Below are positions 3,461-42,222 of a DNA stretch of 64,000 nt, piece by piece. Both the position numbers and the translations under genes were made by a program. Numbering within the stretch: the stretch's first letter is position 1; each line of letters opens with the position of its first letter. The notes below the pieces were generated by a model that had not been told where the DNA came from, ran no database searches, and saw only the letters and a list, made by a program, of their open reading frames with translations. Origin of the DNA: Urechis unicinctus (Eukaryota > Annelida > Polychaeta > Xenopneusta > Urechidae); assembly GCA_034190875.2 (NCBI GenBank), contig JAXDRA010000660.1:29147-93146 (forward strand), in the 5' to 3' direction.

Positions 3461-3927
3461 TGTCTTAGTCAACGTGTACACTTACCACGACAAGTAGGGA
3501 CTGTAACGACTAGAGACGTGCATGTCTTTGTCAAAGTGTATACTTACCACGACAAAAAGGGAATGTAACGACAACAGACGTGCATGTCTTAGTCAACGTC
3601 TACTCTTACCACGATTAGATGGAACTGTAACGACTACAGACGTGCATGTCTTAGTCAACGTCTACACTTACATCGACAAGTAGGGACTGTAACGACTACT
3701 GACGTGCTTGTCTTAGTCAACGTCTACACTTACCACGACAAGAAGGGACTATAACGATTACAGACGTGCATTTCTAAGTCAATGTTTACACTTACATCGA
3801 AATGTAGGGGCTGTAACGACTACTGCCGCGCATATCTTAGTCAACGTCTACACTTACATCGACAAAGTAGGGACTGTAACGACTACTGACGTGCATGTCT
3901 TAGTCAACGTCTACACTTACCACAACA
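3461..3927 (+). repeat. 467-bp tandem duplication, second unit (left locus)
   Basis: Second copy of the preceding 467-bp unit. It ends in the same CCACAACA, but there the sequence continues normally into AGCAGGGACTG. That shows the ancestral, intact monomer and identifies the junction at 3,460/3,461 as the derived one. Confidence 0.85.
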
Positions 3928-4540
3928 AGCAGGGACTGTAACGACTACTGACGTGAATGTCTTGGTCAACGTCTACACTTACCACGACAAGCAGGGACTG
4001 TAACGACTACTGACGTGCATGTCTTAGTCAACGTCTACACTTACCACAACAAGCAGGGACTGTAACGACTACTGACGTGAATGTCTTGGTCAACGTCTAC
4101 ACTTACCACGACAAGCAGGGACTGTAACGACAGCTGACGTACATGTCTTAGTCAACGTCTACACCCACCACGACATGTACGGGATGTAACGACTACTGAC
4201 GTGCATGTCTTAGTCAACGTCTACACTTACCACGACAAGTAGGGACTGTAACGACTACTGACGTGCATGTCTTAGTCAACGTCTACTCTTACAAAGACAA
4301 GTAGGGAATGTAACGATTACTGAGGTTCATGTCTTAGTCAGCGTCTACACTTACCACGATAAGTAGGTACTGTAACGACTACAGACGTGCATGTCTTCGT
4401 CAACGTCTACACTTACATCGACAAGTATGGACTGTAACGACTACTGAATTGCATGACTTAGACAGTTCTACACTTACCACGAAATGTAGGGACTGTAACG
4501 ACTACTGACGTGCATGTCTTAGTCAACGTCTACACTTACA

Positions 4541-5580
4541 TCGACAAGTAGGGTCTGTAACGACTGCTGATGTGCATGTCTTAGTCAATGTCTACACATA
4601 CCACGACAAGTAGGGACTATAACGACTACAGACATGCATGTCTTTGTCAATGTGTGCACATACCACGACAAGTAGGTACTGTAACGACTACAGACGTGCA
4701 TGTCTTAGTCAACGTCTACTCTTTCCACGACAAGTAGGGACTGTAACGACTACAGACGTGCATGTCTTTGTCAATGTCTGCACTTACCACGACAAGTAGG
4801 GACTGTAACGACTACAGACATGCATGTCTTAGTCAACGTCTGCACTTACCACGACAAGTAGGGACTGTAACGACTACAGATGTGCATATCTTAGTCAACG
4901 TCTACACTTACCACGACAAGAAGGGACTATAACGATTACAGACGTGCATTTCTAAGTCAATGTTTACACTTACATCGAAAAGTAGGGGCTGTAACGACTA
5001 CTGACGTCCATATCTTAGTCAACGTCTACACTTACATCGACAAGCAGGGACTGTAACGACTACTGACGCGCATGTCTTAGTTATCATCTACACTTACATC
5101 GACAAGTAGGGACTGTAGCGATTACTGACTTGCATGTTTTAGTCAACATCTTCACTTACAACGATAAGTAGGGACTGTAACGACTACTGACGTGCATGTC
5201 TTAGTCAACGTCTTCACTTACCACAACAAGCAGGGACTGTAACGACTACTGACGTGAATGTCTTGGTCAACGTCTACACTTACCACGACAAGCAGGGACT
5301 GTAACGACAGCTGACGTACATGTCTTAGTCAACGTCTACACCCACCACGACATGTACGGGCTGTAACGACTACTGACGCGCATGTCTTAGTCAACGTCTA
5401 CTCTTACAAAGACAAGTAGGGAATGTAACGATTACTGAGGTTCATGTCTTAGTCAGCGTCTACACTTACCACGATAAGTAGGTACTGTAACGACTACAGA
5501 CGTGCATGTCTTCGTCAACGTCTACACTTACATCGACAAGTATGGACTGTAACGACTACTGAATTGCATGTCTTAGACAG
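4541..5580 (+). repeat. Block of the 19-monomer (1,177-bp) higher-order family, left copy
   Basis: The landmark CCCACCACGACATGTAC at 4,164 recurs at 5,341, 1,177 bp later (19 monomers less one base). The TGCTGATGTG monomer at 4,565 and the 5,341 landmark recur at 19,878 and 20,654, both offset by 15,313. The block is therefore colinear with about 19,854-20,860. Confidence 0.75.
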
Positions 5581-8281
5581 TTCTACACTTACCACGAAAT
5601 GTAGGGACTGTAACGACTACAGACGGTCATCTTTTAGTCAACATCTACACTTACCACGACAAACAGGGACTGTAACGACTACTGACGTGCATGTCTTAGT
5701 CAGCATCTACACTTACCACGACAAGTAGGTTCTGTAACGACTACTGACGTGCATGTCGTTGTCAACGTGTACACTTACCATGACAAGTAGTGACTGTAAC
5801 GACTACAGACGTACATGTCTTAGTCAACGTATACACTTACTATGACAAGTAGGGACTGTAACGACTACAGACGTGCATGCCTAAGTCAACGTCTACACTT
5901 ACCACGATAAGAAGGGTCTGTAACGACTGAAGACGTGCATGTCTTAGTCAACGTCTACACTTACCACGACAAGTAGTGGATGTAACGACTACTGACGTGC
6001 ATGTCTTAATCAACGTCTACACTTACAACGACAAGTAGGGACTGTAATGACTACAGATGGGCATGTCTTAGTCAACATCTACACTTCCATCGACAAGTAG
6101 GGACTGTAGCGACAACAGACGTGCATGTATTAGTCAACGTCTACACTTACCATGACAAGTAGGGACTGTAACGACTAGAGACGTGCATATCTTAGTCAAC
6201 GTATATACTTACATCGACAAGTAGGGACTGTAACGACTACTGAGGTGCATATCTTAGTCAGCGTCTACACTTACCACGACAAGTAGTTGATGTAACGACT
6301 ACTGACGTGCATGTCTTAGTCAACGTCTACACCTACCACGACAAGTAGGGACTGTAACGACTACTGACGTGCATGTCTTAGTTAACGTCTACACTTACAT
6401 CGACAAGCAGGGACTGTAACGAATACTGACGTGCATGTCTTAGTTAACGTCTACACATACATCGACAAGTATGGACTATAGCGACAACTGCCGTGCATGT
6501 CTTAGTCAAAGTTTACACTTACCACAAAGGGTAGGTACTGTAACGACTACAGACGTACATGACTTAGTCAACGTCTGCACTTAAATCGACAAGTAGGGAC
6601 TGTAACGACAACATACGTGCATGTCTTAGTCAACGTCTACACTTACATCGACATGTAGGATCTGTAACGACTACTGACATGCATTTCTTAGTCAACGTAG
6701 ACACTTACCACGAAAAGTAGGGACTGTAACGACTACTGACGTGCATGTCTTAGTCAACCTCTACTCTTATATCGACAAGTAAGGACTGTTACGACTACAG
6801 ACAGGCATGTCTAAGTCAATGTCTACACTTACCACGACAAGTAGGGACTGTAACGACTACTGACATGCATGTCTTAGTCAACGTAGACACTTACCACGAA
6901 ACGTAGGGACTGTAACGACCACAGACGTGCATTTCTTAGTCAACGTCTACACTTGCATCGAAATGTAGGGACTGTAACGTCTAAAGACGTGCATGTCTTG
7001 GTCAACGTCTACTGTTACAAAGACAAGTTGAGAATGTAAAGACTACATACGTGCATGTCTTAGTCAACGTCTACACTTACATCGACATATAGGGACTGTA
7101 ACGACTACAGACGTACATCTCTTAGTCAATATCTACACTTACCACGACAAGCAGGGACTGTAACGACTACAGACGTACATCTCTTAGTCAATATCTACAC
7201 TTACCACGACAAGCAGGGACTGTAACGACTACTGACGTGCATGTCTTAGTCAACGTCTACACTTACCACGACAGGTAGGGACTAACGACTACTGACGTGC
7301 ATGTCTCAGTCAACGTCTACACTAACCACGACATGTAGGTATTGTAACGACTACACCTGTGCATGTCTTACAACGTCTACTCTTACCACGACAAATAGGA
7401 ACTGTAACAACTACAGACGTGCATGTCTTAGTCAACGTCTACTCTTACCATGACAAGTAGTGACTGTAACGACTACAGACGTACATGTCTTAGTCAACGT
7501 ATACACTTACCATGACAAGTAGGGACTGTAACGACTACAGACGTGCATGTCTAAGTCAACGTCTACACTTACCACGATAAGTAGGGACTGTAACGACTGA
7601 AGACGTGCATGTCTTAGTCAACGTCTACACTTACCACGACAAGTAGGTACTGTAACAACTACAGACGTGCATATCTTAGTCAGCGTCTACACTTACATCG
7701 ACAAGTAAGGACAGTAACGACTACTGAATTGTATGTCTTAGTCAACGTCTACACTTATCACGACGAGTAGGGTCTGTTACGACTACAGACGTGCATATCC
7801 TAGTCAATGTCTTCACTTACATCGACATGTAGGTACTGTAAAGCCTACAGACGCGCATGATTTTGTCAACGTCTACACTTAGCACTACAAGTAGGGACTG
7901 TAACGACTACAGACGGTCATCTTTTAGTCAACATCTACACTTACCACGACAAACAGGGACTGTAACGACTACTGACGTGCATGTCTTAGTCAGCATCTAC
8001 ACTTACCACGACAAGTAGGTTCTGTAACGACTACTGACGTGCATGTCGTTGTCAACGTGTACACTTACCATGACAAGTAGTGACTGTAACGACTACAGAC
8101 GTACATGTCTTAGTCAACGTATACACTTACCATGACAAGTAGGGACTGTAACGACTACAGACGTGCATGTCTATGTCAACGTCTACACTTACCACGATAA
8201 GTAGGGACTGTAACGACTGAAGACGTGCATGTCTTAGTCAACGTCTACACTTACCACGACAAGTAGTGGATGTAACGACTA

Positions 8282-17598: not shown

Positions 17599-17839
17599 AC
17601 TACTGACGTGCATGTCTTAGTCAACGTCTACACTTACCACGACAAGTAGGGACTGTAACGACTACTGACGTGCATGTCTTAGTCAACGTCTACTCTTACA
17701 AAGACAAGTAGGGAATGTAACGACTACTGAGGTTCTTGTCTTAGTCAACGTCTACACTTACCACGATAAGTAGGTACTGTAACGACTACAGACGTGCATG
17801 TCTTCGTCAACGTCTACACTTACATCGACAAGTAGGGAC

Positions 17840-18600
17840 TGTAACGAACGACTACTGAATTGCAAGTGTCTTAGACAGACGTGCACACAACGTCTACACC
17901 ACGAAAGTAGGGTAACGACTACTGACGTGCATGTCTTAGTCAACGTACACTTACCCACGACAAGTAGGGACTGTAACGACTACTGACGTGCATGTCTTAG
18001 TCAATGTCTACACTTACGACAAGCGTACCACGACAAGTAGGGACTGTAACGACTACTGACGTGCATGTCTTAGTCAATGTCTACACATACCACGACAAGT
18101 AGGGACTGTACGACTACAGACGTGCATGTCTTTGTCAATGTCTGCACTTACCACGACAAGTAGGGACTGTAACGTAACGAGTCTACAGACGTGCATGTAG
18201 GGTCTGCACTTTGTCAGACGTGCATGTCTTAGTGTCTGCACTTACCACGACAAGTAGGGACTGTAACGACTACAGACGTGCGTCTACTTATCGACAAGTA
18301 TGGAACTGTAACGACTACTGACATATGTCTTAGTCAACGTCTACACTTACCACGACAAGTAGGGACTGTAACGACTACAGATGCATGTCTTAGTCAACGT
18401 CTACACTTACCACGACAAGTAGGTACTGTAACGACTACAGACGTGCATGTCTAAGTCAATGTTTACACTACCATCGACAAGTAGGGACTGTAACGACTAC
18501 TGACGCGCATGTCTTAGTAGTCTACACGTCTACACTTACTTCGACAAGCAGGGGACTGTAACGACTACTGTAACGACGTGACGTGCAATGTCTTAGTTAA
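17840..18600 (+). repeat. Phase-broken satellite patch
   Basis: The 62-bp register fails repeatedly here: a duplicated ACGAACGAC near 17,845, shortened monomers near 17,880-17,920, GTAACGTAACGAG near 18,172, a jumbled unit at 18,190-18,235, and a doubled TGTAACGAC near 18,565. All fragments are still recognisable pieces of the monomer, with no foreign DNA. Flanking blocks on both sides are regular. This may be real rearrangement or poor consensus in the assembly. The overlapping open frames at 17,758-17,958 (minus) and 17,798-17,986 (plus) arise from the broken register. Confidence 0.75.
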
Positions 18601-18659
18601 CAACTACACATACATCGACAATTAGAGACTGTAGCGATTACTGACTTGCATGTTTTAGT

Positions 18660-21614: not shown

Positions 21615-24184
21615 ACTGACGTGCAGTCTTAGTCAACGTCTACACTTGCCACGACAAGTAGGTACTGTAACAACTACAGACGTGCATGTCTTAGTCAACG
21701 TCTACACTTACATCGACAAGTAAGGACTGTAACGACTACTGAATTGTATGTCTTAGTCAACGTCTACACTTATCACGACAAGTAGGGACAGTTACGACTA
21801 CAGACGTGCATGTCCTAGTCAATGTCTTCACTTACATCGACATATAGGGACTGTAACGACTACAGACGTACATCTCTTAGTCAACATCTACACTTACCAC
21901 GACAAGCAGGGACTGTAACGACTACTGACGTGCATGTCTTAGTCAACGTCTACACTTACCACGACAAGTAGGGACTGTAACGACTAATGACGTGCATGTC
22001 TTAGTCAACGTGTACACTTACCACGACAAGTAGGGACTGTAACGACTAGAGACGTGCATGTCTTTGTCAAATTGTACACTTACCACGACAAGTAGGGTAT
22101 GTAACGACTAATGAGGTGCATGTTTTAGTCAACATCTACACTTACCACGACAAGTAGGGACTGTAACGACTACAGACGTGCATGTCTTAGTCAACGTCTA
22201 CACTTACCACGACAAGTAGGGACTGTAACAACAACAGATGTGCATGTCCTAGTCAATGTCTTCACTTTCATCGACATGTAGGAACTGTAACGACTACAGA
22301 CGTACATCTCTTAGTCAACATCTACTCTTACCACGACAAGTAGGGACTGTAACGACTACAGACGTACAAGTCTTAGTTTAACGTCTACACTTACTATGAC
22401 AAGTAGGGACTGTAACGACCACTGACGTGCATGTCTTAGTCAACGTCTAGGCTTACCACCACAGGTAGGGACTGTAACGACTACAAACTAGCCTGTCTTA
22501 GTCAAAGTCTACACTTACCACGACATGTAGGGTCTGTAACGACTACAGACGTGCATGTCTTAGTCAACGTCTACACTTACCACGACAGGTAGGGACTAAC
22601 GACTACAGACGTGAATGTCTCAGTCAACGTCTACACTTACATCGACATGTAGGGACTGTAGCGTCTACTGACGTGCATGTCTTAGTCAACGTCTACACTT
22701 ACCACGATAAGTAGGGACTGTAACGACTAGATACGTGCATTTCGTACTCAACGTCTACACTTACATCGAAAAGTAGGGACTGTAACGACTACTGACGCGC
22801 AAATCTTAGTCAACGTCTACACTTACATCGACATATAGGGACTGTAACGACTACAGACGGAATGTCTTAATCAACGTATACACTTGCATCGACATGAAGG
22901 GACTGTAAAGACTACAGACGTGCATGTTTTTGTCAACGTCTACACTTAGCACTACAAGTAGGGACTGTAACGACTACAGACGGTCATCTTTTAGTCAACA
23001 TCTACACTTACCACGACAAACAGGGACTGTAACGACTACTGACGTGCATGTCTTAGTCAACATCTACACTTACCACGACAAGTAGGTTCAGTAACGACTA
23101 CTGACGTGCATGTCGTTGTCAACGTGTACACTTACCACGACAAGTAGGGACTGTAACGACTAATGACGTGCATGTCTTAGTCAACGTGTACACTTACCAC
23201 GACAAGTAGGGACTGTAACGACTAGAGACGTGCATGTCTTTGTCAAAGTGTATACTTACCACGACAAGTAGGGAATGTAACGACAACAGACGTGCATGTC
23301 CTAGTCAATGTCTTCACTTACATCGACATGTAGGAACTTAAACGACTACAAACGTACATCTCGTAGTCAACATCTACACTTACCACGACAAGCGGGGACT
23401 GTAACGACTACTGACGTGCATGTCTTAGTCAACGTCTACACTTACTACGACAGGTAGGGACTAACGACTACTGACGTGCATGTCTCAGTCAACGTCTACA
23501 CTTACCACGACAGGTAGGGACTAACGACTACTGACGTGCATGTCTCAGTCAACGTCTACACTTACATCGACAAGTAGGGACTGTAGCGTCTATTGACGTG
23601 CATGTCTTAGTCAACGTCTACACTTACCACGATAAGTAGGGACTGTAACGACTACTGACGTGCATGTCTTAGTCAACATCTGCACTTACCACAACAGGTA
23701 GGGACTGTTACGACTACAGACGTGCATGTCTTAATCAACGTCTACACTTACATCGACAAGTAGGGACTGTAGCGTCTATTGACGTGCATGTCTTAGTCAA
23801 TGTCTACACTTACCACGATAAGTAGGGACTGTAACGACTACAGACGCGCATGTCTTAGTTAACGTCTACACTAACCACGACATGTAGGTATTGTAACGAC
23901 TACACCTGTGCATGTCTTACAACGTCTACTGTTACCACGACAAATTGGAACTGTAACAACTACAGACGTGCATGTCTTAGTCAACGTCTACTCTTACCAT
24001 GACAAGTAGTGACTGTAACGACTACAGACGTACATGTCTTAGTCAACGTATACACTTACCATGACAAGTAGGGACTGTAACGACTACAGACGTGCATGTC
24101 TAAGTCAACGTCTACACTTACCACGATAAGTAGGGACTGTAACGACTGAAGACGTGCATGTCTTAGTCAACGTCTACACTTACC
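21615..24184 (+). repeat. Distant copy of 8.28-10.85 kb
   Basis: Colinear with 8,282-10,850 at a constant offset of 13,333. The left limit is where 21,600 still has the AGGGGCTG monomer type while the 8.28 kb flank differs. At the right limit, 24,184/24,185, this copy jumps back to a sequence like 22,704, starting the 1,481-bp tandem duplication. At 10,850 the sister block simply continues. Confidence 0.85.
22704..24184 (+). repeat. 1,481-bp (24-monomer) tandem duplication, unit A
   Basis: The length is 24 x 62 less 7. The deficit is explained by two 60-bp monomers, one monomer lacking GT (CTTACAACG) and one lacking a base (ACGGAATG). Diagnostic variants of type A are AAGCGGGGACTG (near 23,391), TTACTACGACAGG (near 23,443) and CTTAATCAACG (near 23,730). 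Confidence 0.85.
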
Positions 24185-25665
24185 ACGATAAGTAGGGACT
24201 GTAACGACTAGAGACGTGCATTTCTTACTCAACGTCTACACTTACATCGAAAAGTAGGGAATGTAACGACTACTGACGCGCATATCTTAGTCAACGTCTA
24301 CACTTACATCGACATATAGGGACTGTAGCGACTACAGACGGAATGTCTTAATCAACGTATACACTTGCATCGACATGAAGGGACTGTAAAGACTACAGAC
24401 GTGCATGTTTTTGTCAACGTCTACACTTAGCACTACAAGTAGGGACTGTAACGACTACAGACGGTCATCTTTTAGTCAACATCTACACTTACCACGACAA
24501 ACAGGGACTGTAACGACTACTGACGTGCATGTCTTAGTCAACATCTACACTTACCACGACAAGTAGGTTCAGTAACGACTACTGACGTGCATGTCGTTGT
24601 CAACGTGTACACTTACCACGACAAGTAGGGACTGTAACGACTAATGACGTGCATGTCTTAGTCAACGTGTACACTTACCACGACAAGTAGGGACTGTAAC
24701 GACTAGAGACGTGCATGTCTTTGTCAAAGTGTATACTTACCACGACAAGTAGGGAATGTAACGACAACAGACGTGCATGTCCTAGTCAATGTCTTCACTT
24801 ACATCGACATGTAGGAACTTAAACGACTACAAACGTACATCTCGTAGTCAACATCTACACTTACCACGACAAGCAGGGACTGTAACAACTACTGACGTGC
24901 ATGTCTTAGTCAACGTCTACACTTACCACGACAGGTAGGGACTAACGACTACTGACGTGCATGTCTCAGTCAACGTCTACACTTACCACGACAGGTAGGG
25001 ACTAACGACTACTGACGTGCATGTCTCAGTCAACGTCTACACTTACATCGACAAGTAGGGACTGTAGCGTCTATTGACGTGCATGTCTTAGTCAACGTCT
25101 ACACTTACCACGATAAGTAGGGACTGTAACGACTACTGACGTGCATGTCTTAGTCAACATCTGCACTTACCACAACAGGTAGGGACTGTTACGACTACAG
25201 ACGTGCATGTCTTAGTCAACGTCTACACTTACATCGACAAGTAGGGACTGTAGCGTCTATTGACGTGCATGTCTTAGTCAATGTCTACACTTACCACGAT
25301 AAGTAGGGACTGTAACGACAACAGACGCGCATGTCTTAGTTAACGTCTACACTAACCACGACATGTAGGTATTGTAACGACTACACCTGTGCATGTGTTA
25401 CAACGTCTACTGTTACCACGACAAATTGGAACTGTAACAACTACAGACGTGCATGTCTTAGTCAACGTCTACTCTTACCATGACAAGTAGTGACTGTAAC
25501 GACTACAGACGTACATGTCTTAGTCAACGTATACACTTACCATGACAAGTAGGGACTGTAACGACTACAGACGTGCATGTCTAAGTCAACGTCTACACTT
25601 ACCACGATAAGTAGGGACTGTAACGACTGAAGACGTGCATGTCTTAGTCAACGTCTACACTTACC
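24185..25665 (+). repeat. 1,481-bp (24-monomer) tandem duplication, unit B
   Basis: Adjacent copy of unit A: AACTTAAACG moves from 23,335 to 24,816. Diagnostic type-B variants are GCAGGGACTGTAACAACTAC (24,872), ACGACAACAGACGCG (near 25,316) and GCATGTGTTAC (25,391). After 25,665 the sequence continues as it does after 10,850; GAATTGTAT at 10,942 lies at 25,756, an offset of 14,814, which equals 13,333 plus 1,481. This confirms a tandem duplication inserted into the longer copied block. Confidence 0.85.
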
Positions 25666-25970
25666 ACGACAAGTAGGTACTGTAACAACTACAGACGTGC
25701 ATATCTTAGTCAACGTCTACACTTACATCGACAAGTAAGGACTGTAACGACTACTGAATTGTATGTCTTAGTCAACGTCTACACTTTCCACGACAAGTAG
25801 GGACTGTAACGACTACAGACGTGCATGTCTTTGTCAATGTCTGCACTTACCACGACAAGTAGGGACTGTAACGACTACAGACATGCATGTCTTAGTCAAC
25901 GTCTGCACTTACCACGACAAGTAGGGACTGTAACGACTACAGATGTGCATATCTTAGTCAACGTCTACAC

Positions 25971-26161
25971 TTATCACGACAAGTAGGGACAGTTACGACT
26001 ACAGACGTGCATGTCCTAGTCAATGTCTTCACTTACATCGACATATAGGGACTGTAACGACTACAGACGTACATCTCTTAGTCAACATCTACACTTACCA
26101 CGATAAGTAGGGACTGTAACGACTGAAGACGTGCATGTCTTAGTCAACGTCTACACTTACC
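25971..26161 (+). repeat. Mosaic joint between duplicated A-B blocks
   Basis: About 190 bp built of short pieces with different relatives. 25,971-26,096 matches the TTATCACGAC / GGGACAGTTACG monomers seen near 8.44 and 21.77 kb. It then switches to a GACTGAAGACG monomer (26,121) leading into the same junction as at 24,185. It separates the first and second A-B blocks. Confidence 0.7.
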
Positions 26162-29100
26162 ACGATAAGTAGGGACTGTAACGACTAGAGACGTGCATTT
26201 CTTACTCAACGTCTACACTTACATCGAAAAGTAGGGACTGTAACGACTACTGACGCGCATATCTTAGTCAACGTCTACACTTACATCGACATATAGGGAC
26301 TGTAACGACTACAGACGGAATGTCTTAATCAACGTATACACTTGCATCGACATGAAGGGACTGTAAAGACTACAGACGTGCATGTTTTTGTCAACGTCTA
26401 CACTTAGCACTACAAGTAGGGACTGTAACGACTACAGACGGTCATCTTTTAGTCAACATCTACACTTACCACGACAAACAGGGACTGTAACGACTACTGA
26501 CGTGCATGTCTTAGTCAACATCTACACTTACCACGACAAGTAGGTTCAGTAACGACTACTGACGTGCATGTCGTTGTCAACGTGTACACTTACCACGACA
26601 AGTAGGGACTGTAACGACTAATGACGTGCATGTCTTAGTCAACGTGTACACTTACCACGACAAGTAGGGACTGTAACGACTAGAGACGTGCATGTCTTTG
26701 TCAAAGTGTATACTTACACGACAAGTAGGGAATGTAACGACAACAGACGTGCATGTCCTAGTCAATGTCTTCACTTACATCGACATGTAGGAACTTAAAC
26801 GACTACAAACGTACATCTCGTAGTCAACATCTACACTTACCACGACAAGCGGGGACTGTAACGACTACTGACGTGCATGTCTTAGTCAACGTCTACACTT
26901 ACTACGACAGGTAGGGACTAACGACTACTGACGTGCATGTCTCAGTCAACGTCTACACTTACCACGACAGGTAGGGACTAACGACTACTGACGTGCATGT
27001 CTCAGTCTACGTCTACACTTACATCGACAAGTAGGGACTGTAGCGTCTATTGACGTGCATGTCTTAGTCAACGTCTACACTTACCACGATAAGTAGGGAC
27101 TGTAACGACTACTGACGTGCATGTCTTAGTCAACATCTGCACTTACCACAACAGGTAGGGACTGTTACGACTACAGACGTGCATGTCTTAATCAACGTCT
27201 ACACTTACATCGACAAGTAGGGACTGTAGCGTCTATTGACGTGCATGTCTTAGTCAATGTCTACACTTACCACGATAAGTAGGGACTGTAACGACTACAG
27301 ACGCGCATGTCTTAGTTAACGTCTACACTAACCACGACATGTAGGTATTGTAACGACTACACCTGTGCATGTCTTACAACGTCTACTGTTACCACGACAA
27401 ATTGGAACTGTAACAACTACAGACGTGCATGTCTTAGTCAACGTCTACTCTTACCATGACAAGTAGTGACTGTAACGACTACAGACGTACATGTCTTAGT
27501 CAACGTATACACTTACCATGACAAGTAGGGACTGTAACGACTACAGACGTGCATGTCTAAGTCAACGTCTACACTTACCACGATAAGTAGGGACTGTAAC
27601 GACTGAAGACGTGCATGTCTTAGTCAACGTCTACACTTACCACGATAAGTAGGGACTGTAACGACTAGAGACGTGCATTTCTTACTCAACGTCTACACTT
27701 ACATCGAAAAGTAGGGACTGTAACGACTACTGACGCGCATATCTTAGTCAACGTCTACACTTACATCGACATATAGGGACTGTAGCGACTACAGACGGAA
27801 TGTCTTAATCAACGTATACACTTGCATCGACATGAAGGGACTGTAAAGACTACAGACGTGCATGTTTTTGTCAACGTCTACACTTAGCACTACAAGTAGG
27901 GACTGTAACGACTACAGACGGTCATCTTTTAGTCAACATCTACACTTACCACGACAAACAGGGACTGTAACGACTACTGACGTGCATGTCTTAGTCAACA
28001 TCTACACTTACCACGACAAGTAGGTTCAGTAACGACTACTGACGTGCATGTCGTTGTCAACGTGTACACTTACCACGACAAGTAGGGACTGTAACGACTA
28101 ATGACGTGCATGTCTTAGTCAACGTGTACACTTACCACGACAAGTAGGGACTGTAACGACTAGAGACGTGCATGTCTTTGTCAAAGTGTATACTTACCAC
28201 GACAAGTAGGGAATGTAACGACAACAGACGTGCATGTCCTAGTCAATGTCTTCACTTACATCGACATGTAGGAACTTAAACGACTACAAACGTACATCTC
28301 GTAGTCAACATCTACACTTACCACGACAAGCAGGGACTGTAACAACTACTGACGTGCATGTCTTAGTCAACGTCTACACTTACCACGACAGGTAGGGACT
28401 AACGACTACTGACGTGCATGTCTCAGTCAACGTCTACACTTACATCGACAAGTAGGGACTGTAGCGTCTATTGACGTGCATGTCTTAGTCAACGTCTACA
28501 CTTACCACGATAAGTAGGGACTGTAACGACTACTGACGTGCATGTCTTAGTCAACATCTGCACTTACCACAACAGGTAGGGACTGTTACGACTACAGACG
28601 TGCATGTCTTAGTCAACGTCTACACTTACATCGACAAGTAGGGACTGTAGCGTCTATTGACGTGCATGTCTTAGTCAATGTCTACACTTACCACGATAAG
28701 TAGGGACTGTAACGACAACAGACGCGCATGTCTTAGTTAACGTCTACACTAACCACGACATGTAGGTATTGTAACGACTACACCTGTGCATGTGTTACAA
28801 CGTCTACTGTTACCACGACAAATTGGAACTGTAACAACTACAGACGTGCATGTCTTAGTCAACGTCTACTCTTACCATGACAAGTAGTGACTGTAACGAC
28901 TACAAACGTACATGTCTTAGTCAACGTATACACTTACCATGACAAGTAGGGACTGTAACGACTACAGACGTGCATGTCTAAGTCAACGTCTACACTTACC
29001 ACGATAAGTAGGGACTGTAACGACTGAAGACGTGCATGTCTTAGTCAACGTCTACACTTACCACGACAAGTAGGTACTGTAACAACTACAGACGTGCATA

Positions 29101-29367
29101 TCTTAGTCAACGTCTACACTTACATCGACAAGTAAGGACTGTAACGACTACTGAATTGTATGTCTTAGTCAACGTCTACACTTTCCACGACAAGTAGGGA
29201 CTGTAACGACTACAGACGTGCATGTCTTTGTCAATGTCTGCACTTACCACGACAAGTAGGGACTGTAACGACTACAGACATGCATGTCTTAGTCAACGTC
29301 TGCACTTACCACGACAAGTAGGGACTGTAACGACTACAGATGTGCATATCTTAGTCAACGTCTACAC
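26162..29367 (+). repeat. Second A-B block (3,457-bp period)
   Basis: Copy of 22,705-25,970. Landmarks at 23,335, 24,144, 24,816 and 24,884 recur at 26,792, 27,601, 28,273 and 28,341, all 3,457 bp on. After one 60-bp monomer is lost in this copy (near 28,390) the offset becomes 3,397 (25,393 to 28,790; 25,941 to 29,338). Type-A variants appear near 26,850 and type-B variants near 28,332. A one-base deletion is present near 26,712 (TACTTACACGACAAG). Confidence 0.85.
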
Positions 29368-32140
29368 TTTCCACGACAAGTAGGGACTGTAACGACTACA
29401 GACGTGCATGTCTTTGTCAATGTCTGCACTTACCACGACAAGTAGGGACTGTAACGACTACAGACATGCATGTCTTAGTCAACGTCTGCACTTACCACGA
29501 CAAGTAGGGACTGTAACGACTACAGATGTGCATATGTTAGTCAACGTCTACACTTACCACGACAAGAAGGGACTATAACGATTACAGACGTGCATTTCTA
29601 AGTCAATGTTTACACTTACATCGAAAAGTAGGGGCTGTAACGACTACTGACGCCCATATCTTAGTCAACGTCTACACTTACATCGACAAGCAGGGACTGT
29701 AACGACTACTGACGTGCATGTCTTAGTTATCATCTACACTTACATCGACAAGTAGGGACTGTAGCGATTACTGACTTGCATGTTTTAGTCAACATCTTCA
29801 CTTACAACGATAAGTAGGGACTGTAACGACTACTGACGTGCATGTCTTAGTCAACGTCTTCACTTACCATGACAAGTAGGGACTGTAACGACTACAGACG
29901 TGCATGTCTAAGTCAACGTCTACACTTACCACGATAAGTAGGGACTGTAACGACTGAAGACGTGCATGTCTTAGTCAACGTCTACACTTACATCGACAAG
30001 TAAGGACTGTAACGACTACTGAATTGTATGTCTTAGTCAACGTCTACACTTTCCACGACAAGTAGGGACTGTAACGACTACAGACGTGCATGTCTTTGTC
30101 AATGTCTGCACTTACCACGACAAGTAGGGACTGTAACGACTACAGACATGAATGTCTTAGTCAACGTCTGCACTTAACACGACAAGTAGGGACTGTAACG
30201 ACTACAGATGTGCATATCTTAGTCAACGTCTACACTTACCACGACAAGAAGGGACTTTAACGATTACAGACGTGCATTTCTAAGTCAATGTTTACACTTA
30301 CATCGAAAAGTAAGGGCTGTAACGACTACTGACGCCCATATCTTAGTCAACGTCTACACTTACATCGACAAGCAGGGACTGTAACGACTACTGACGTGCA
30401 TGTCTTAGGCAACGTCTACACTTACCACGACAGGTAGGGACTAACGACTACTGACGTGCATGTCTCAGTCAACGTCTACACTTACCACGACAGGTAGGGA
30501 CTAACGACTACTGACGTGCATGTCTCAGTCAACGTCTACACTTACATCGACAAGTAGGGACTGTAGCGTCTATTGACGTGCATGTCTTAGTCAACGTCTA
30601 CACTTACCACGATAAGTAGGGACTGTAACGACTACTGACGTGCATGTCTTAGTCAACATCTGCACTTACCACAACAGGTAGGGACTGTTACGACTACAGA
30701 CGTGCATGTCTTAGTCAACGTCTACACTTACATCGACAAGTAGGGACTGTAGCGTCTATTGACGTGCATGTCTTAGTCAATGTCTACACTTACCACGATA
30801 AGTAGGGACTGTAACGACTACAGACGCGCATGTCTTAGTTAACGTCTACACTAACCACGACATGTAGGTATTGTAAAGACTACACCTGTGCATGTCTTAC
30901 AACGTCTACTGTTACCACGACAAATTGGAACTGTAACAACTACAGACGTGCATGTCTTAGTCAACGTCTACTCTTACCATGACAAGTAGTGACTGTAACG
31001 ACTACAGACGTACATGTCTTAGTCAACGTATACACTTACCATGACAAGTAGGGACTGTAACGACTACAGACGTGCATGTCTAAGTCAACGTCTACACTTA
31101 CCACGATAAGTAGGGACTGTAACGACTGAAGACGTGCATGTCTTAGTCAACGTCTACACTTACCACGACAAGTAGGTACTGTAACAACTACAGACGTGCA
31201 TATCTTAGTCAACGTCTACACTTACATCGACAAGTAAGGACTGTAACGACTACTGAATTGTATGTCTTAGTCAACGTCTACACTTTCCACGACAAGTAGG
31301 GACTGTAACGACTACAGACGTGCATGTCTTTGTCAATGTCTGCACTTACCACGACAAGTAGGGACTGTAACGACTACAGACATGCATGTCTTAGTCAACG
31401 TCTGCACTTACCACGACAAGTAGGGACTGTAACGACTACTGACGCGCATATCTTAGTCAACGTCTACACTTACATCGACATATAGGGACTGTAACGACTA
31501 CAGACGGAATGTCTTAATCAACGTATACACTTGCATCGACATGAAGGGACTGTAAAGACTACAGACGTGCATGTTTTTGTCAACGTCTACACTTAGCACT
31601 ACAAGTAGGGACTGTAACGACTACAGACGGTCATCTTTTAGTCAACATCTACACTTACCACGACAAACAGGGACTGTAACGACTACTGACGTGCATGTCT
31701 TAGTCAACATCTACACTTACCACGACAAGTAGGTTCAGTAACGACTACTGACGTGCATGTCGTTGTCAACGTGTACACTTACCACGACAAGTAGGGACTG
31801 TAACGACTAATGACGTGCATGTCTTAGTCAACGTGTACACTTACCACGACAAGTAGGGACTGTAACGACTAGAGACGTGCATGTCTTTGTCAAAGTGTAT
31901 ACTTACCACGACAAGTAGGGAATGTAACGACAACAGACGTGCATGTCCTAGTCAATGTCTTCACTTACATCGACATGTAGGAACTTAAACGACTACAAAC
32001 GTACATCTCGTAGTCAACATCTACACTTACCACGACAAGCGGGGACTGTAACGACTACTGACGTGCATGTCTTAGTCAACGTCTACACTTACTACGACAG
32101 GTAGGGACTAACGACTACTGACGTGCATGTCTCAGTCAAC
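28310..32140 (+). repeat. 3,831-bp tandem duplication, unit 1
   Basis: About 62 monomers. Private variants such as CACTTAACACG (30,171), AAGTAAGGGCTG (near 30,306), CTTAGGCAACG (near 30,404) and TTGTAAAGACTAC (near 30,873) recur 3,831 bp on. The unit starts in a type-B block and ends inside a type-A block (A marker CGGGG at 32,040), which defines the exchange that made the duplication. Confidence 0.88.
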
Positions 32141-35100
32141 ATCTACACTTACCACGACAAGCAGGGACTGTAACAACTACTGACGTGCATGTCTTAGTAA
32201 ACGTCTACACTTACCACGACAGGTAGGGACTAACGACTACTGACGTGCATGTCTCAGTCAACGTCTACACTTACATCGACAAGTAGGGACTGTAGCGTCT
32301 ATTGACGTGCATGTCTTAGTCAACGTCTACACTTACCACGATAAGTAGGGACTGTAACGACTACTGACGTGCATGTCTTAGTCAACATCTGCACTTACCA
32401 CAACAGGTAGGGACTGTTACGACTACAGACGTGCATGTCTTAGTCAACGTCTACACTTACATCGACAAGTAGGGACTGTAGCGTCTATTGACGTGCATGT
32501 CTTAGTCAATGTCTACACTTACCACGATAAGTAGGGACTGTAACGACAACAGACGCGCATGTCTTAGTTAACGTCTACACTAACCACGACATGTAGGTAT
32601 TGTAACGACTACACCTGTGCATGTGTTACAACGTCTACTGTTACCACGACAAATTGGAACTGTAACAACTACAGACGTGCATGTCTTAGTCAACGTCTAC
32701 TCTTACCATGACAAGTAGTGACTGTAACGACTACAAACGTACATGTCTTAGTCAACGTATACACTTACCATGACAAGTAGGGACTGTAACGACTACAGAC
32801 GTGCATGTCTAAGTCAACGTCTACACTTACCACGATAAGTAGGGACTGTAACGACTGAAGACGTGCATGTCTTAGTCAACGTCTACACTTACCACGACAA
32901 GTAGGTACTGTAACAACTACAGACGTGCATATCTTAGTCAACGTCTACACTTACATCGACAAGTAAGGACTGTAACGACTACTGAATTGTATGTCTTAGT
33001 CAACGTCTACACTTTCCACGACAAGTAGGGACTGTAACGACTACAGACGTGCATGTCTTTGTCAATGTCTGCACTTACCACGACAAGTAGGGACTGTAAC
33101 GACTACAGACATGCATGTCTTAGTCAACGTCTGCACTTACCACGACAGGTAGGGACTGTAACGACTACAGATGTGCATATCTTAGTCAACGTCTACACTT
33201 TCCACGACAAGTAGGGACTGTAACGACTACAGACGTGCATGTCTTTGTCAATGTCTGCACTTACCACGACAAGTAGGGACTGTAACGACTACAGACATGC
33301 ATGTCTTAGTCAACGTCTGCACTTACCACGACAAGTAGGGACTGTAACGACTACAGATGTGCATATGTTAGTCAACGTCTACACTTACCACGACAAGAAG
33401 GGACTATAACGATTACAGACGTGCATTTCTAAGTCAATGTTTACACTTACATCGAAAAGTAGGGGCTGTAACGACTACTGACGCCCATATCTTAGTCAAC
33501 GTCTACACTTACATCGACAAGCAGGGACTGTAACGACTACTGACGTGCATGTCTTAGTTATCATCTACACTTACATCGACAAGTAGGGACTGTAGCGATT
33601 ACTGACTTGCATGTTTTAGTCAACATCTTCACTTACAACGATAAGTAGGGACTGTAACGACTACTGACGTGCATGTCTTAGTCAACGTCTTCACTTACCA
33701 TGACAAGTAGGGACTGTAACGACTACAGACGTGCATGTCTAAGTCAACGTCTACACTTACCACGATAAGTAGGGACTGTAACGACTGAAGACGTGCATGT
33801 CTTAGTCAACGTCTACACTTACATCGACAAGTAAGGACTGTAACGACTACTGAATTGTATGTCTTAGTCAACGTCTACACTTTCCACGACAAGTAGGGAC
33901 TGTAACGACTACAGACGTGCATGTCTTTGTCAATGTCTGCACTTACCACGACAAGTAGGGACTGTAACGACTACAGACATGAATGTCTTAGTCAACGTCT
34001 GCACTTAACACGACAAGTAGGGACTGTAACGACTACAGATGTGCATATCTTAGTCAACGTCTACACTTACCACGACAAGAAGGGACTTTAACGATTACAG
34101 ACGTGCATTTCTAAGTCAATGTTTACACTTACATCGAAAAGTAAGGGCTGTAACGACTACTGACGCCCATATCTTAGTCAACGTCTACACTTACATCGAC
34201 AAGCAGGGACTGTAACGACTACTGACGTGCATGTCTTAGGCAACGTCTACACTTACCACGACAGGTAGGGACTAACGACTACTGACGTGCATGTCTCAGT
34301 CAACGTCTACACTTACCACGACAGGTAGGGACTAACGACTACTGACGTGCATGTCTCAGTCAACGTCTACACTTACATCGACAAGTAGGGACTGTAGCGT
34401 CTATTGACGTGCATGTCTTAGTCAACGTCTACACTTACCACGATAAGTAGGGACTGTAACGACTACTGACGTGCATGTCTTAGTCAACATCTGCACTTAC
34501 CACAACAGGTAGGGACTGTTACGACTACAGACGTGCATGTCTTAGTCAACGTCTACACTTACATCGACAAGTAGGGACTGTAGCGTCTATTGACGTGCAT
34601 GTCTTAGTCAATGTCTACACTTACCACGATAAGTAGGGACTGTAACGACTACAGACGCGCATGTCTTAGTTAACGTCTACACTAACCACGACATGTAGGT
34701 ATTGTAAAGACTACACCTGTGCATGTCTTACAACGTCTACTGTTACCACGACAAATTGGAACTGTAACAACTACAGACGTGCATGTCTTAGTCAACGTCT
34801 ACTCTTACCATGACAAGTAGTGACTGTAACGACTACAGACGTACATGTCTTAGTCAACGTATACACTTACCATGACAAGTAGGGACTGTAACGACTACAG
34901 ACGTGCATGTCTAAGTCAACGTCTACACTTACCACGATAAGTAGGGACTGTAACGACTGAAGACGTGCATGTCTTAGTCAACGTCTACACTTACCACGAC
35001 AAGTAGGTACTGTAACAACTACAGACGTGCATATCTTAGTCAACGTCTACACTTACATCGACAAGTAAGGACTGTAACGACTACTGAATTGTATGTCTTA

Positions 35101-35971
35101 GTCAACGTCTACACTTTCCACGACAAGTAGGGACTGTAACGACTACAGACGTGCATGTCTTTGTCAATGTTTGCACTTACCACGACAAGTAGGGACTGTA
35201 ACGACTACAGACATGCATGTCTTAGTCAACGTCTGCACTTACCACGACAAGTAGGGACTGTAACGACTACTGACGCGCATATCTTAGTCAACGTCTACAC
35301 TTACATCGACATATAGGGACTGTAACGACTACAGACGGAATGTCTTAATCAACGTATACACTTGCATCGACATGAAGGGACTGTAAAGACTACAGACGTG
35401 CATGTTTTTGTCAGCGTCTACACTTAGCACTACAAGTAGGGACTGTAACGACTACAGACGGTCATCTTTTAGTCAACATCTACACTTACCACTACAAACA
35501 GGGACTGTAACGACTACTGACGTGCATGTCTTAGTCAACATCTACACTTACCACGACAAGTAGGTTCAGTAACGACTACTGACGTGCATGTCGTTGTCAA
35601 CGTGTACACTTACCACGACAAGTAGGGACTGTAACGACTAATGACGTGCATGTCTTAGTCAACGTGTACACTTACCACGACAAGTAGGGACTGTAACGAC
35701 TAGAGACGTGCATGTCTTTGTCAAAGTGTATACTTACCACGACAAGTAGGGAATGTAACGACAACAGACGTGCATGTCCTAGTCAATGTCTTCACTTACA
35801 TCGACATGTAGGAACTTAAATGACTACAAACGTACATCTCGTAGTCAACATCTACACTTACCACGACAAGCGGGGACTGTAACGACTACTGACGTGCATG
35901 TCTTAGTCAACGTCTACACTTACTACGACAGGTAGGGACTAACGACTACTGACGTGCATGTCTCAGTCAAC
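32141..35971 (+). repeat. 3,831-bp tandem duplication, unit 2
   Basis: Near-identical copy of the previous unit. The few differences I noticed are single substitutions: CTTAGTAAACG near 32,192, GACAGGTAGGG near 33,144, CAATGTTTGC near 35,164, GTCAGCGTC near 35,412, ACTACAAACAG near 35,492 and TTAAATGAC near 35,816. The right end returns to the intact type-A continuation (TCTCAGTCAACGTCTAC at 35,961), the sequence interrupted at 32,140. Confidence 0.88.
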
Positions 35972-38900
35972 GTCTACACTTACCACGACAGGTAGGGACT
36001 AACGACTACTGACGTGCATGTCTCAGTCAACGTCTACACTTACATCGACAAGTAGGGACTGTAGCGTCTATTGACGTGCATGTCTTAGTCAACGTCTACA
36101 CTTACCACGATAAGTAGGGACTGTAACGACTACTGACGTGCATGTCTTAGTCAACATCTGCACTTACCACAACAGGTAGGGACTGTTACGACTACAGACG
36201 TGCATGTCTTAATCAACGTCTACACTTACATCGACAAGTAGGGACTGTAGCGTCTATTGACGTGCATGTCTTAGTCAATGTCTACACTTACCACGATAAG
36301 TAGGGACTGTAACGACTACAGACGCGCATGTCTTAGTTAACGTCTACACTAACCACGACATGTAGGTATTGTAACGACTACACCTGTGCATGTCTTACAA
36401 CGTCTACTGTTACCACGACAAATTGGAACTGTAACAACTACAGACGTGCATGTCTTAGTCAACGTCTACTCTTACCATGACAAGTAGTGACAGTAACGAC
36501 TACAGACGTACATGTCTTAGTCAACGTATACACTTACCATGACAAGTAGGGACTGTAACGACTACAGACGTGCATGTCTAAGTCAACGTCTACACTTACC
36601 ACGATAAGTAGGGACTGTAACGACTGAAGACGTGCATGTCTTAGTCAACGTCTACACTTACCACGATAAGTAGGGACTGTAACGACTAGAGACGTGCATT
36701 TCTTACTCAACGTCTACACTTACATCGAAAAGTAGGGACTGTAACGACTACTGACGCGCATATCTTAGTCAACGTCTACACTTACATCGACATATAGGGA
36801 CTGTAGCGACTACAGACGGAATGTCTTAATCAACGTATACACTTGCATCGACATGAAGGGACTGTAAAGACTACAGACGTGCATGTTTTTGTCAACGTCT
36901 ACACTTAGCACTACAAGTAGGGACTGTAACGACTACAGACGGTCATCTTTTAGTCAACATCTACACTTACCACGACAAACAGGGACTGTAACGACTACTG
37001 ACGTGCATGTCTTAGTCAACATCTACACTTACCACGACAAGTAGGTTCAGTAACGACTACTGACGTGCATGTCGTTGTCAACGTGTACACTTACCACGAC
37101 AAGTAGGGACTGTAACGACTAATGACGTGCATGTCTTAGTCAACGTGTACACTTACCACGACAAGTAGGGACTGTAACGACTAGAGACGTGCATGTCTTT
37201 GTCAAAGTGCATACTTACCACGACAAGTAGGGAATGTAACGACAACAGACGTGCATGTCCTAGTCAATGTCTTCACTTACATCGACATGTAGGAACTTAA
37301 ACGACTACAAACGTACATCTCGTAGTCAACATCTACACTTACCACGACAAGCAGGGACTGTAACAACTACTGACGTGCATGTCTTAGTCAACGTCTACAC
37401 TTACCACGACAGGTAGGGACTAACGACTACTGACGTGCATGTCTCAGTCAACGTCTACACTTACCACGACAGGTAGGGACTAACGACTACTGACGTGCAT
37501 GTCTCAGTCAACGTCTACACTTACATCGACAAGTAGGGACTGTAGCGTCTATTGACGTGCATGTCTTAGTCAACGTCTACACTTACCACGATAAGTAGGG
37601 ACTGTAACGACTACTGACGTGCATGTCTTAGTCAACATCTGCACTTACCACAACAGGTAGGGACTGTTACGACTACAGACGTGCATGTCTTAGTCAACGT
37701 CTACACTTACATCGACAAGTAGGGACTGTAGCGTCTATTGACGTGCATGTCTTAGTCAATGTCTACACTTACCACGATAAGTAGGGACTGTAACGACAAC
37801 AGACGCGCATGTCTTAGTTAACGTCTACACTAACCACGACATGTAGGTATTGTAACGACTACACCTGTGCATGTGTTACAACGTCTACTGTTACCACGAC
37901 AAATTGGAACTGTAACAACTACAGACGTGCATGTCTTAGTCAACGTCTACTCTTACCATGACAAGTAGTGACTGTAACGACTACAGACGTACATGTCTTA
38001 GTCAACGTATACACTTACCATGACAAGTAGGGACTGTAACGACTACAGACGTGCATGTCTAAGTCAACGTCTACACTTACCACGATAAGTAGGGACTGTA
38101 ACGACTGAAGACGTGCATGTCTTAGTCAACGTCTACACTTACCACGACAAGTAGGTACTGTAACAACTACAGACGTGCATATCTTAGTCAACGTCTACAC
38201 TTACATCGACAAGTAAGGACTGTAACGACTACTGAATTGTATGTCTTAGTCAACGTCTACACTTTCCACGACAAGTAGGGACTGTAACGACTACAGACGT
38301 GCATGTCTTTGTCAATGTCTGCACTTACCACGACAAGTAGGGACTGTAACGACTACAGACATGCATGTCTTAGTCAACGTCTGCACTTACCACGACAAGT
38401 AGGGACTGTAACGACTACAGATGTGCATATCTTAGTCAACGTCTACACTTTCCACGACAAGTAGGGACTGTAACGACTACAGACGTGCATGTCTTTGTCA
38501 ATGTCTGCACTTACCACGACAAGTAGGGACTGTAACGACTACAGACATGCATGTCTTAGTCAACGTCTGCACTTACCACGACAAGTAGGGACTGTAACGA
38601 CTACAGATGTGCATATGTTAGTCAACGTCTACACTTACCACGACAAGAAGGGACTATAACGATTACAGACGTGCATTTCTAAATCAATGTTTACACTTAC
38701 ATCGAAAAGTAGGGGCTGTAACGACTACTGACGCCCATATCTTAGTCAACGTCTACACTTACATCGACAAGCAGGGACTGTAACGACTACTGACGTGCAT
38801 GTCTTAGTTATCATCTACACTTACATCGACAAGTAGGGACTGTAGCGATTACTGACTTGCATGTTTTAGTCAACATCTTCACTTACAACGATAAGTAGGG

Positions 38901-40391
38901 ACTGTAACGACTACTGACGTGCATGTCTTAGTCAACGTCTTCACTTACCATGACAAGTAGGGACTGTAACGACTACAGACGTGCATGTCTAAGTCAACGT
39001 CTACACTTACCACGATAAGTAGGGACTGTAACGACTGAAGACGTGCATGTCTTAGTCAACGTCTACACTTACATCGACAAGTAAGGACTGTAACGACTAC
39101 TGAATTGTATGTCTTAGTCAACGTCTACACTTTCCACGACAAGTAGGGACTGTAACGACTACAGACGTGCATGTCTTTGTCAATGTCTGCACTTACTACG
39201 ACAAGTAGGGACTGTAACGACTACAGACATGAATGTCTTAGTCAACGTCTGCACTTAACACGACAAGTAGGGACTGTAACGACTACAGATGTGCATATCT
39301 TAGTCAACGTCTACACTTACCACGACAAGAAGGGACTTTAACGATTACAGACGTGCATTTCTAAGTCAATGTTTACACTTACATCGAAAAGTAGGGGCTG
39401 TAACGACTACTGACGCCCATATCTTAGTCAACGTCTACACTTACATCGACAAGCAGGGACTGTAACGACTACTGACGTGCATGTCTTAGTCAACGTCTAC
39501 ACTTACCACGACAGGTAGGGACTAACGACTACTGACGTGCATGTCTCAGTCAACGTCTACACTTACCCCGACAGGTAGGGACTAACGACTACTGACGTGC
39601 ATGTCTCAGTCAACGTCTACACTTACATCGACAAGTAGGGACTGTAGCGTCTATTGACGTGCATGTCTTAGTCAACGTCTACACTTACCACGATAAGTAG
39701 GGACTGTAACGACTACTGACGTGCATGTCTTAGTCAACATCTGCACTTACCACAACAGGTAGGGACTGTTACGACTACAGACGTGCATGTCTTAGTCAAC
39801 GTCTACACTTACATCGACAAGTAGGGACTGTAGCGTCTATTGACGTGCATGTCTTAGTCAATGTCTACACTTACCACGATAAGTAGGGACTGTAACGACT
39901 ACAGACGCGCATGTCTTAGTTAACGTCTACACTAACCACGACATGTAGGTATTGTAACGACTACACCTGTGCATGTCTTAGTCAACGTATACACTTACCA
40001 TGACAAGTAGGGACTGTAACGACTACAGACGTGCATGTCTAAGTCAACGTCTACACTTACCACGATAAGTAGGGACTGTAACGACTGAAGACGTGCATGT
40101 CTTAGTCAACGTCTACACTTACCACGACAAGTAGGTACTGTAACAACTACAGACGTGCATATCTTAGTCAACGTCTACACTTACATCGACAAGTAAGGAC
40201 TGTAACGACTACTGAATTGTATGTCTTAGTCAACGTCTACACTTTCCACGACAAGTAGGGACTGTAACGACTACAGACGTGCATGTCTTTGTCAATGTCT
40301 GCACTTACCACGACAAGTAGGGACTGTAACGACTACAGACATGCATGTCTTAGTCAACGTCTACACTTACCACGACAAGTAGGGACTGTAA
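35250..40391 (+). repeat. Further A-B block and its continuation
   Basis: Colinear with 26,230-31,430. The offset is 9,021 at first (26,792 to 35,813; 27,601 to 36,622; 28,273 to 37,294). It becomes 9,081 once the 60-bp monomer missing near 28,390 is present here (30,171 to 39,252), and 8,959 after a two-monomer (122-bp) deletion at about 39,980. The internal A-to-B distance is again 1,481 bp. This copy lacks the AAGTAAGGG, CTTAGGC and TTGTAAAG variants of the 3,831-bp units, so it separated before those arose. Confidence 0.82.
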
Positions 40392-42222
40392 CGACTACAG
40401 ATGTGCATATCTTAGTCAACGTCTACACTTACCACGACAAGAAGGGACTATAACGATTACAGACGTGCATTTCTAAGTCAATGTTTACACTTACATCGAA
40501 AAGTAGGGGCTGTAACGACTACTGACGCGCATATCTTAGTCAACGTCTACACTTACATCGACAAGCAGGGACTGTAACGACTACTGACGTGCATGTCTTA
40601 GTTAACGTCTACACTTACATCGACAAGTAGGGACTGTAGCGATTACTGACTTGCATGTTTTAGTCAACGTCTACACTTACAACGATAAGTAGGGACTGTA
40701 ACGACTACTGACGTGCATGTCTTAGTCAACGTCTACACTTACCACAACAAGCAGGGACTGTAACGACTACTGACGTGAATGTCTTGGTCAACGTCTACAC
40801 TTACCACGACAAGCAGGGACTGTAACGACAGCTGACGTACATGTCTTAGTCAACGTCTACACTTACCACGACATGTAGGGGCTGTAACGACTACTGACGT
40901 GCATGTCTTAGTCAACGTTTACACTTACCACGACAAGTAGGGACTGTAACGACTACTGACGTGCATGTCTTAGTCAACGTCTACTCTTACAAAGACAAGT
41001 AGGGAATGTAACGATTACTGAGGTTCATGTCTTAGTCAGCGTCTACACTTACCACGATAAGTAGGTACTGTAACGACTACAGACGTGCATGTCTTCGTCA
41101 ACGTCTACACTTACATCGACAAGTATGGACTGTAACGACTACTGAATTGCATGTCTTAGACAGTTCTACACTTACCACGAAATGTAGGGACTGTAACGAC
41201 TACTGACGTGCATGTCTTAGTCAACGTCTACACTTACCACGACAAGTAGGGACTGTAACGACTAATGACGTGCATGTCTTAGTCAACGTGTACACTTACC
41301 ACGACAAGTAGGGACTGTAACGACTAGAGACGTGCATGTCTTTGTCAAAGTGTATACTTACCACGACAAATAGGGAATGTAACGACAACAGACGTGCATG
41401 TCTTAGTCAACGTCTACACTTACCACGATTAGATAGGAACTGTAACGACTACAGACGTGCATGTCTTAGTCAACGTCTACACTTACATCGACAAGTAGGG
41501 ACTGTAACGACTACTGACGTGCATGTCTTAGTCAACGTCTACACTTACCACGACAAGAAGGGACTGTAACGACTACAGACGTGCATTTCTAAGTCAATGT
41601 TTACACTTACATCGAAATGTAGGGGACTGTAACGACTACAGACGTGCATGTCTTAGTCAACGTCTACACTTACATCGACAAGTAGGGACTGTAACGACTA
41701 CTGACGTGCATGTCTTAGTCAACGTCTACACTTACCACAACATGTCTTAGTCAACGTGTACACTTACCACGACAAGTAGGGACTGTAACGACTAGAGACG
41801 TGCATGTCTTTGTCAAAGTCTACACTTACCACGACAAATAGGGACTGTAACGACTACAGACGTGCATGTCTTAGTCAACGTCTACACTTACCACGATTAG
41901 ATAGGGACTGTAACGACTACAGACGTGCATGTCTTAGTCAACGTCTACACTTACATCGACAAGTAGGGACTGTAACGACTACTGACGTGCATGTCTTAGT
42001 CAACGTCTACACTTACCACGACAAGAAGGGACTGTAACGATTACAGACGTGCATTTCTAAGTCAATGTCTACACTTACATCGAAATGTAGGGACTGTAAC
42101 GACTACTGACGCGCATATCTTAGTCAACGTCTACACTTACATCGACAAAGTAGGGACTGTAACGACTACTGACTTGCATGTCTTAGTCAACGTCTACACT
42201 TACCACAACAAGCAGGGACTGT
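40082..42222 (+). repeat. Consensus-shifted copy of 10.8-12.95 kb
   Basis: Landmarks at 10,811, 10,942, 11,127, 11,711, 12,150 and 12,617 recur at 40,083, 40,214, 40,399, 40,983, 41,422 and 41,890 (offset 29,272, then 29,273). Many sites that are variant in the other copy carry the array consensus here: CACCCACC becomes CACTTACC, GTTATCATC becomes GTTAACGTC, GACGTGCTTG becomes GACGTGCATG, and TCTTCAC becomes TCTACAC. The shift grows stronger toward 42 kb. Confidence 0.82.
41275..42210 (+). repeat. 467/468-bp tandem duplication pair, third locus
   Basis: Third copy of the same pair, 29,272-29,273 bp downstream of the second locus, with the same truncated junction (41,742/41,743). Units here are 468 bp because AGATGG has become AGATAGG. 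Many variant bases of the other two loci are replaced by consensus bases. The two 77-codon open frames at 41,336-41,569 and 41,804-42,037 are the same chance reading frame in the two units. Confidence 0.8.

Follow-up and report, generated by a model that had tools for sequence, protein, structure and literature searches.

A chimeric monomer at the junction of two 3,831-bp head-to-tail copies in a 62-bp satellite array of Urechis unicinctus

Close to position 32,140 of a stretch of Urechis unicinctus DNA (contig JAXDRA010000660.1; the window hereafter, i.e. the whole 64,000 nucleotides analysed), a satellite monomer that begins as one sequence type ends as another, and the question raised by this locus is whether such a seam records an unequal exchange that duplicated a block of the array, as proposed in an earlier note made from the same DNA, or another event leaving the same sequence behind, such as a deletion.

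The 64-kb window is satellite from end to end: among the shifts of 1-7,999 compared, self-identity is highest at shift 62 (0.759), and cyclic alignment of the window resolves 1,034 monomers, 847 of which are 62 bp long and 384 distinct. An exact 34-base pattern of the satellite gave 0 matches in viral contigs and 0 in prokaryote genome contigs, and a literature search with the 62-bp satellite and sequence snippets returned nothing on the present satellite. As a guess, the array may be centromeric. Over the whole window, the CpG observed/expected ratio is 1.15, i.e. without depletion, which may point to little germ-line CpG methylation in the host. The G+C content is 0.450-0.465 past 46 kb and 0.434-0.449 earlier in the window, and few among the best 120 of 10,975 self-matches lie past 42 kb; about 42,000-64,000 is possibly an older part of the array. 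Odd-length monomers (43-74 bp) are clustered at 17,819-18,608. Besides, a 3.5-kb pair (22,771-26,291 and 35,249-38,769, lag 12,478, 40 differences over 3,521) and a 1,481-bp tandem pair (22,670-24,250 and 24,151-25,731, 17 differences over 1,581) together show nested array growth within 21.6-41.4 kb.

Among the 10,975 ungapped self-matches, namely those above a score cut-off, the top score belongs to a head-to-tail pair at lag 3,831:

28,310-32,140, + strand: copy 1 of the 3,831-bp unit (62 monomers), with 6 differences from copy 2 and the ancestral base at all 6.
32,141-35,971, + strand: copy 2 of the 3,831-bp unit, with the derived base at 6 of the 6 differences.

In ungapped self-comparison, 28,303-32,140 matches 32,134-35,971 except at 6 bases (copy 1 positions 28,368, 29,317, 31,340, 31,583, 31,662 and 31,990), the match being lost at 32,141, 32,160 and 32,162 and almost wholly from 32,170 on; upstream, identity at this lag is down to 0.17-0.235 in 200-bp windows of 27,401-28,200. 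Cut at monomer ends (28,317-32,147 and 32,148-35,978), the copies comprise 62 monomers each and are identical in 55 of the 62, the monomers of copy 1 being of 62 bp (n=55), 60 bp (n=6) or 61 bp (n=1). The pair claimed by the earlier note is confirmed, and where an identity above about 99.5% had been expected of a recent exchange, alignment of 28,310-32,140 with 32,141-35,971 gives 99.84%. The term recent nonetheless holds in a relative sense only: because another long pair, at lag 3,457, is similarly diverged (2/1,727), a divergence of 0.16% does not appear to mark out the array event as very recent.

The switch itself lies at the boundary of the two copies, in a monomer of 60 bases:

32,088-32,147, + strand: seam (chimeric) monomer, like D1 in its body but with ATCTACA, the B-type end, occurring once and one base from D1 at 35,919-35,978.
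32,134-32,140, + strand: 7-base tract AGTCAAC, common to both parents and holding the switch, from self-match and monomer comparison.

Of the two parents, D1, of type A, is present in three copies (23,441; 26,898; 35,919), and B, ending in ATCTACA as at 28,255-28,316, has seven exact occurrences. The one base by which the seam monomer departs from D1 is 32,141 (A for G), and it is taken as inherited from B because A stands at that phase in 81 of 1,030 monomers while private changes are rare (6 over both copies). It is on this single base that the mid-monomer position of the switch rests; were it a chance point mutation (a CpG transition), the switch would fall within 32,142-32,159 instead. The change of neighbours across the seam, from C' D1 to C D0, is independent of it. 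The type-A to type-B switch described by the earlier note is thereby confirmed as a switch, its mid-monomer character depending on 32,141. Its placement inside the shared AGTCAAC agrees with the tract common to both parents, and pairing in monomer register, also claimed, is borne out by the shared tract falling in phases 48-54 of 62 in the seam and in both parents alike.

When the seam monomer is examined as a hybrid, that is, as an exact prefix of one recurrent monomer plus an exact suffix of another, in phase, a prefix of 53 and a suffix of 14 with an overlap of 7 account for its 60 bases. The same test is loose, with 104 of 233 singleton monomers passing, 59 of the 104, the seam included, being at most one substitution from another monomer; by this loose measure, candidate chimeric monomers are common in the window. 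A second hybrid monomer, at 39,932-39,993, differs by 7 substitutions from even the nearest monomer of equal length; its head resembles 30,851 and its tail 10,660, with a shared tract of 9 bases. By sequence it is a clearer chimera than the seam monomer at 32,088-32,147, and compared with 30,789-31,096 it seems to mark the local loss of two monomers (122 bp). As for local features of the seam, folding of the seam monomer, of the two parental monomers and of 62 bases from the seam was not clearly stabler than that of shuffles (z of 0.01, 0.43, -0.77 and -0.63, respectively), and a hairpin was dropped as the cause of the seam on this ground. A scan of 31,900-32,400 for promoter and terminator consensus gave 0 and 1 matches, respectively, the latter being taken as meaningless.

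What lies on either side of the seam becomes legible at the level of higher-order organisation, where the monomer types line up as one cassette, B C D D E, at nine places and completely at 7 of the 9. Three of these matter here, together with two flanks:

28,255-28,500, + strand: LP cassette, B C D0 E, one D short, from which the right side of the seam derives (monomer typing).
31,964-32,331, + strand: hybrid cassette Q, B C' D1* then C D0 E (monomer typing).
35,795-36,100, + strand: RP cassette, B C' D1 D0 E, from which the left side of the seam derives (monomer typing).
27,709-28,302, + strand: left paralogous flank of LP, matching 31,418-32,011 at lag 3,709, with 1 of 594 bases differing.
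35,969-36,754, + strand: right paralogous flank of RP, matching 32,200-32,985 at lag 3,769, with 13 of 786 bases differing.

Both parental sequences are present in the window, as the earlier note had it, in LP and RP. The hybrid cassette is made of the left part of a C'D1 cassette, as in RP, and the right part of a C D0 cassette, as in LP with its single D: C' at 32,026-32,087 has RP-type bases (CGGGG, AACGAC), C at 32,148-32,209 has LP-type bases (CAGGG, AACAAC), and the D missing from LP is missing again to the right of the seam (C D0 E). The left flank at lag 3,709 can be stretched out to 27,494, with 27 of 809 bases differing. LP and RP are paralogous copies of one cassette, with both breakpoints inside them. 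From the lags of 3,709 on the left and 3,769 on the right, against 3,831, it follows that the pairing was probably nearly in register, the join being off the left register by two monomers and off the right one by one. On this point the earlier note, in its own wording, finds no support: the partners, which it placed out of higher-order register, have flanks that are paralogous within 122 bp (left) and 62 bp (right) of register.

How unusual such flanks are can be gauged from random in-phase pairs, comparable flanks being found in 15 of 1,500 pairs from the window and in 55 of 1,500 from 21.6-41.4 kb, figures that are more a description than a test, as the flank criterion was picked with the seam already in view and an earlier criterion already applied. 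With that first criterion (windows touching the seam, mark at 0.97), LP and RP give 0.997 on the left and 0.913 on the right, the latter below the mark. When a copying (mosaic) model is run and its evaluable switch points are judged in windows that touch the join, both flanks reach at least 0.97 in 3.9% and one flank in 15.5%, the corresponding values for random pairs being 0.9% and 3.7% in the window and 6.2% and 14.3% in 21-41 kb; at 7 of the model's 166 switch points, the present seam included, both flanks are at least 0.95. Near-register joining was rejected as a general rule of switch points, both flanks being at least 0.97 in only 3.9%. A fixed breakage phase was likewise discarded, the 166 switch points being spread over the monomer, with the present seam at phase 48. 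Phases 0-5 hold 26 of the 166, the most of any six-base bin.

With a probability of roughly 60%, the locus is read here as the product of an unequal exchange between two array copies that duplicated 62 monomers, and one event suffices. Around the observed duplicate, seam and flank paralogy at lags 3,709 and 3,769, the course of this exchange would have been as follows. Two array copies would pair, either on sister chromatids or with a broken fork re-starting on the sister, the similarity of the LP and RP cassettes presumably bringing the partners together; pairing would slip by 1-2 monomers so that D1 meets B; strands would be joined within AGTCAAC, linking the D1 monomer end in RP to the B monomer end in LP, 3,831 bp upstream; and the 62 monomers between the joined ends would be duplicated. 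The right paralogous flank (13/786) is ten times more diverged than the duplicate (6/3,831; Fisher p 9e-7); the near left flank (1/594) is no more diverged than the duplicate (Fisher p 1.0), and divergence therefore gives no mark of the left edge.

A deletion account yields identical sequence, so that the 'one tandem duplication' of the earlier note stands as the simplest account and not as the only one. The deletion, here rated as unlikely although it deserves serious weight, would have removed about 1,360 bp from the middle one of three tandem 5.19-kb units, fusing D1 to B; the unit would comprise a C'D1 cassette, 1,481 bp on a C D0 cassette, and then 3.7 kb, and the loss would amount to one 1,481-bp repeat minus two monomers, between two cassettes, the 3,831-bp pair being the remainder. 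The first such unit starts as follows:

26,229-28,443, + strand: start of the first 5.19-kb unit, whose copy at 35,249-37,464 makes the deletion possible.

Several observations agree with it. Cassettes C'D1 and C D0 stand 1,481 bp apart elsewhere (23,317/24,798; 26,774/28,255; 35,795/37,276), and the make-up of the hybrid cassette, left part of the former and right part of the latter, is that of such a fusion. Copies of the 5.19-kb unit are found within 26.2-40.4 kb, with 0 of 489 bases differing between 26,229-26,717 and 31,418-31,906, 4 of 1,727 between 26,717-28,443 and 35,738-37,464, 7 of 2,535 between 28,365-30,899 and 37,446-39,980 and, beyond the two-monomer loss, 4 of 452 between 31,021-31,472 and 39,980-40,431. 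The other hybrid, at 39,932-39,993, fits a local two-monomer deletion, and deletion is a usual rival because the hybrid monomers of human cenX were read as deletions (PMC8336445, in its available part). The end of copy 1, 31,418-32,159, i.e. the left side of the seam, shows 1 substitution and one shifted single-base gap relative to the first unit, against 4 substitutions relative to copy 2, on the RP side, 3 of them private to copy 2 and the fourth being the seam base; that it resembles the first unit more closely than the third, its supposed sister, would count as a point against duplication. Yet the differences in 31,418-32,159 are private and no shared derived site there settles the grouping; an undeleted middle unit was looked for among the cassettes of the window and none was found; and the deletion needs one extra event, an in-register gain of 5.19 kb. 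At seven sites in 28,365-30,899, copies 1 and 2 go together against the copy at 37,446-39,980, the only polarised one, 28,905, carrying a derived base common to copies 1 and 2, a grouping that duplication and deletion allow alike. Duplication is preferred because deletion needs one event more.

An assembly artefact, in which a 3.8-kb stretch was repeated or mis-joined, for instance two haplotypes placed end to end, is quite improbable: a difference of 0.16% could be allelic in size, but the seam is a 7-base in-phase join of two different monomers and not a long overlap, and long overlaps are what assemblers rely on; in addition, the flanking paralogy and the second, different hybrid monomer fit a real array history and speak against an artefact. 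Least credible is an origin in two steps, an exact in-register exchange followed by a small separate insertion in which gene conversion added the C monomer. Length changes on the monomer scale do exist in this array, as seen in LP without one D and at 39,932-39,993, but the extra C has LP-type bases and so cannot stem from a duplication of the C' next to it, and a separate cause would be required for the B-type base at 32,141.

Under the preferred duplication, the manner of joining can be considered further. At the join the partners share 7 bases, random in-phase joins having a median of 14 and 7 or fewer in 28.5%, and two tracts identical in register, of 327 and 247 bp, lie within 800 bp of it. 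A 7-base join beside such long identical tracts is odd for a plain homologous crossover; a crossover drawn to the longest identity would look different, which leaves room for template switching, although one seam cannot decide. Crossover and break-induced or microhomology-mediated copying have the same product and are not separable by sequence alone. A more general proposal, tentative and rather doubtful, is that the array gains length when copying switches template at microhomologies from one higher-order paralog to another, a process in which long homology would align the partners within 1-2 monomers, the join would use few bases, and the new block would carry all the new mutations.

The mutations bear on this point without settling it. 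Polarised against other copies in the window, every one of the 6 differences has its derived base in copy 2 and its ancestral base in copy 1; were the copies of equal age, about 3 in each would be expected (binomial two-sided p 0.031, post hoc), and 4 of the 6 sit in the last 21% of the unit. A figure of 'up to 1,000x' for errors of break-induced replication (BIR) appears in the available part of PMC11034957. The excess in copy 2 was not accepted as proving that break-induced copying was mutagenic here, six of six with p 0.031 being too few and post hoc. Besides, BIR error rates are too low for 6 changes in 3.8 kb in one event. That all six are derived in copy 2 is predicted by neither duplication nor deletion.

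The value of the locus lies in the fact that a readable seam with both parents on one molecule gives a handle on length change in satellite arrays. On this one it can be measured how far the partners stood from higher-order register, how many bases are identical at the join and how much the copies have diverged. The case further shows how easily a deletion passes for a duplication, and with seams of this kind catalogued from several haplotypes, crossover could be tested against template switching.

The unequal exchange model of satellite evolution is reportedly that of Smith in 1976; chimeric monomers and unequal exchange in satellites are already well known, and the seam is, on the preferred reading, an ordinary trace, of a well-known kind, of the unequal exchanges that lengthen and shorten satellite arrays. 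With the break-induced replication model of centromere array growth, which in the available parts of PMC8997354 and PMC11034957 involves an out-of-register re-start behind the fork and may use microhomology, the present locus shares the head-to-tail duplication, whereas here the event is known from its sequence, which does not tell BIR from crossover. As in the hybrid monomers of human alpha satellite (PMC8336445, PMC9549924, as far as the accessible text goes), prefix and suffix are fused in phase and monomer length is kept; in contrast, the monomer here is of 62 bp without demonstrated sequence kinship, the hybrid occurs once, and the cenX hybrids were, in the part of PMC8336445 available, attributed to deletions. 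There is likeness in outline with the unequal exchange model itself, in which, according to the available portion of PMC8997354, tandem arrays gain or lose blocks of monomers through out-of-register exchange, and higher-order repeats arise in this way; here, by comparison, a block of monomers was duplicated or deleted with the partners only 1-2 monomers off the higher-order register and 7 bases of identity at the join.
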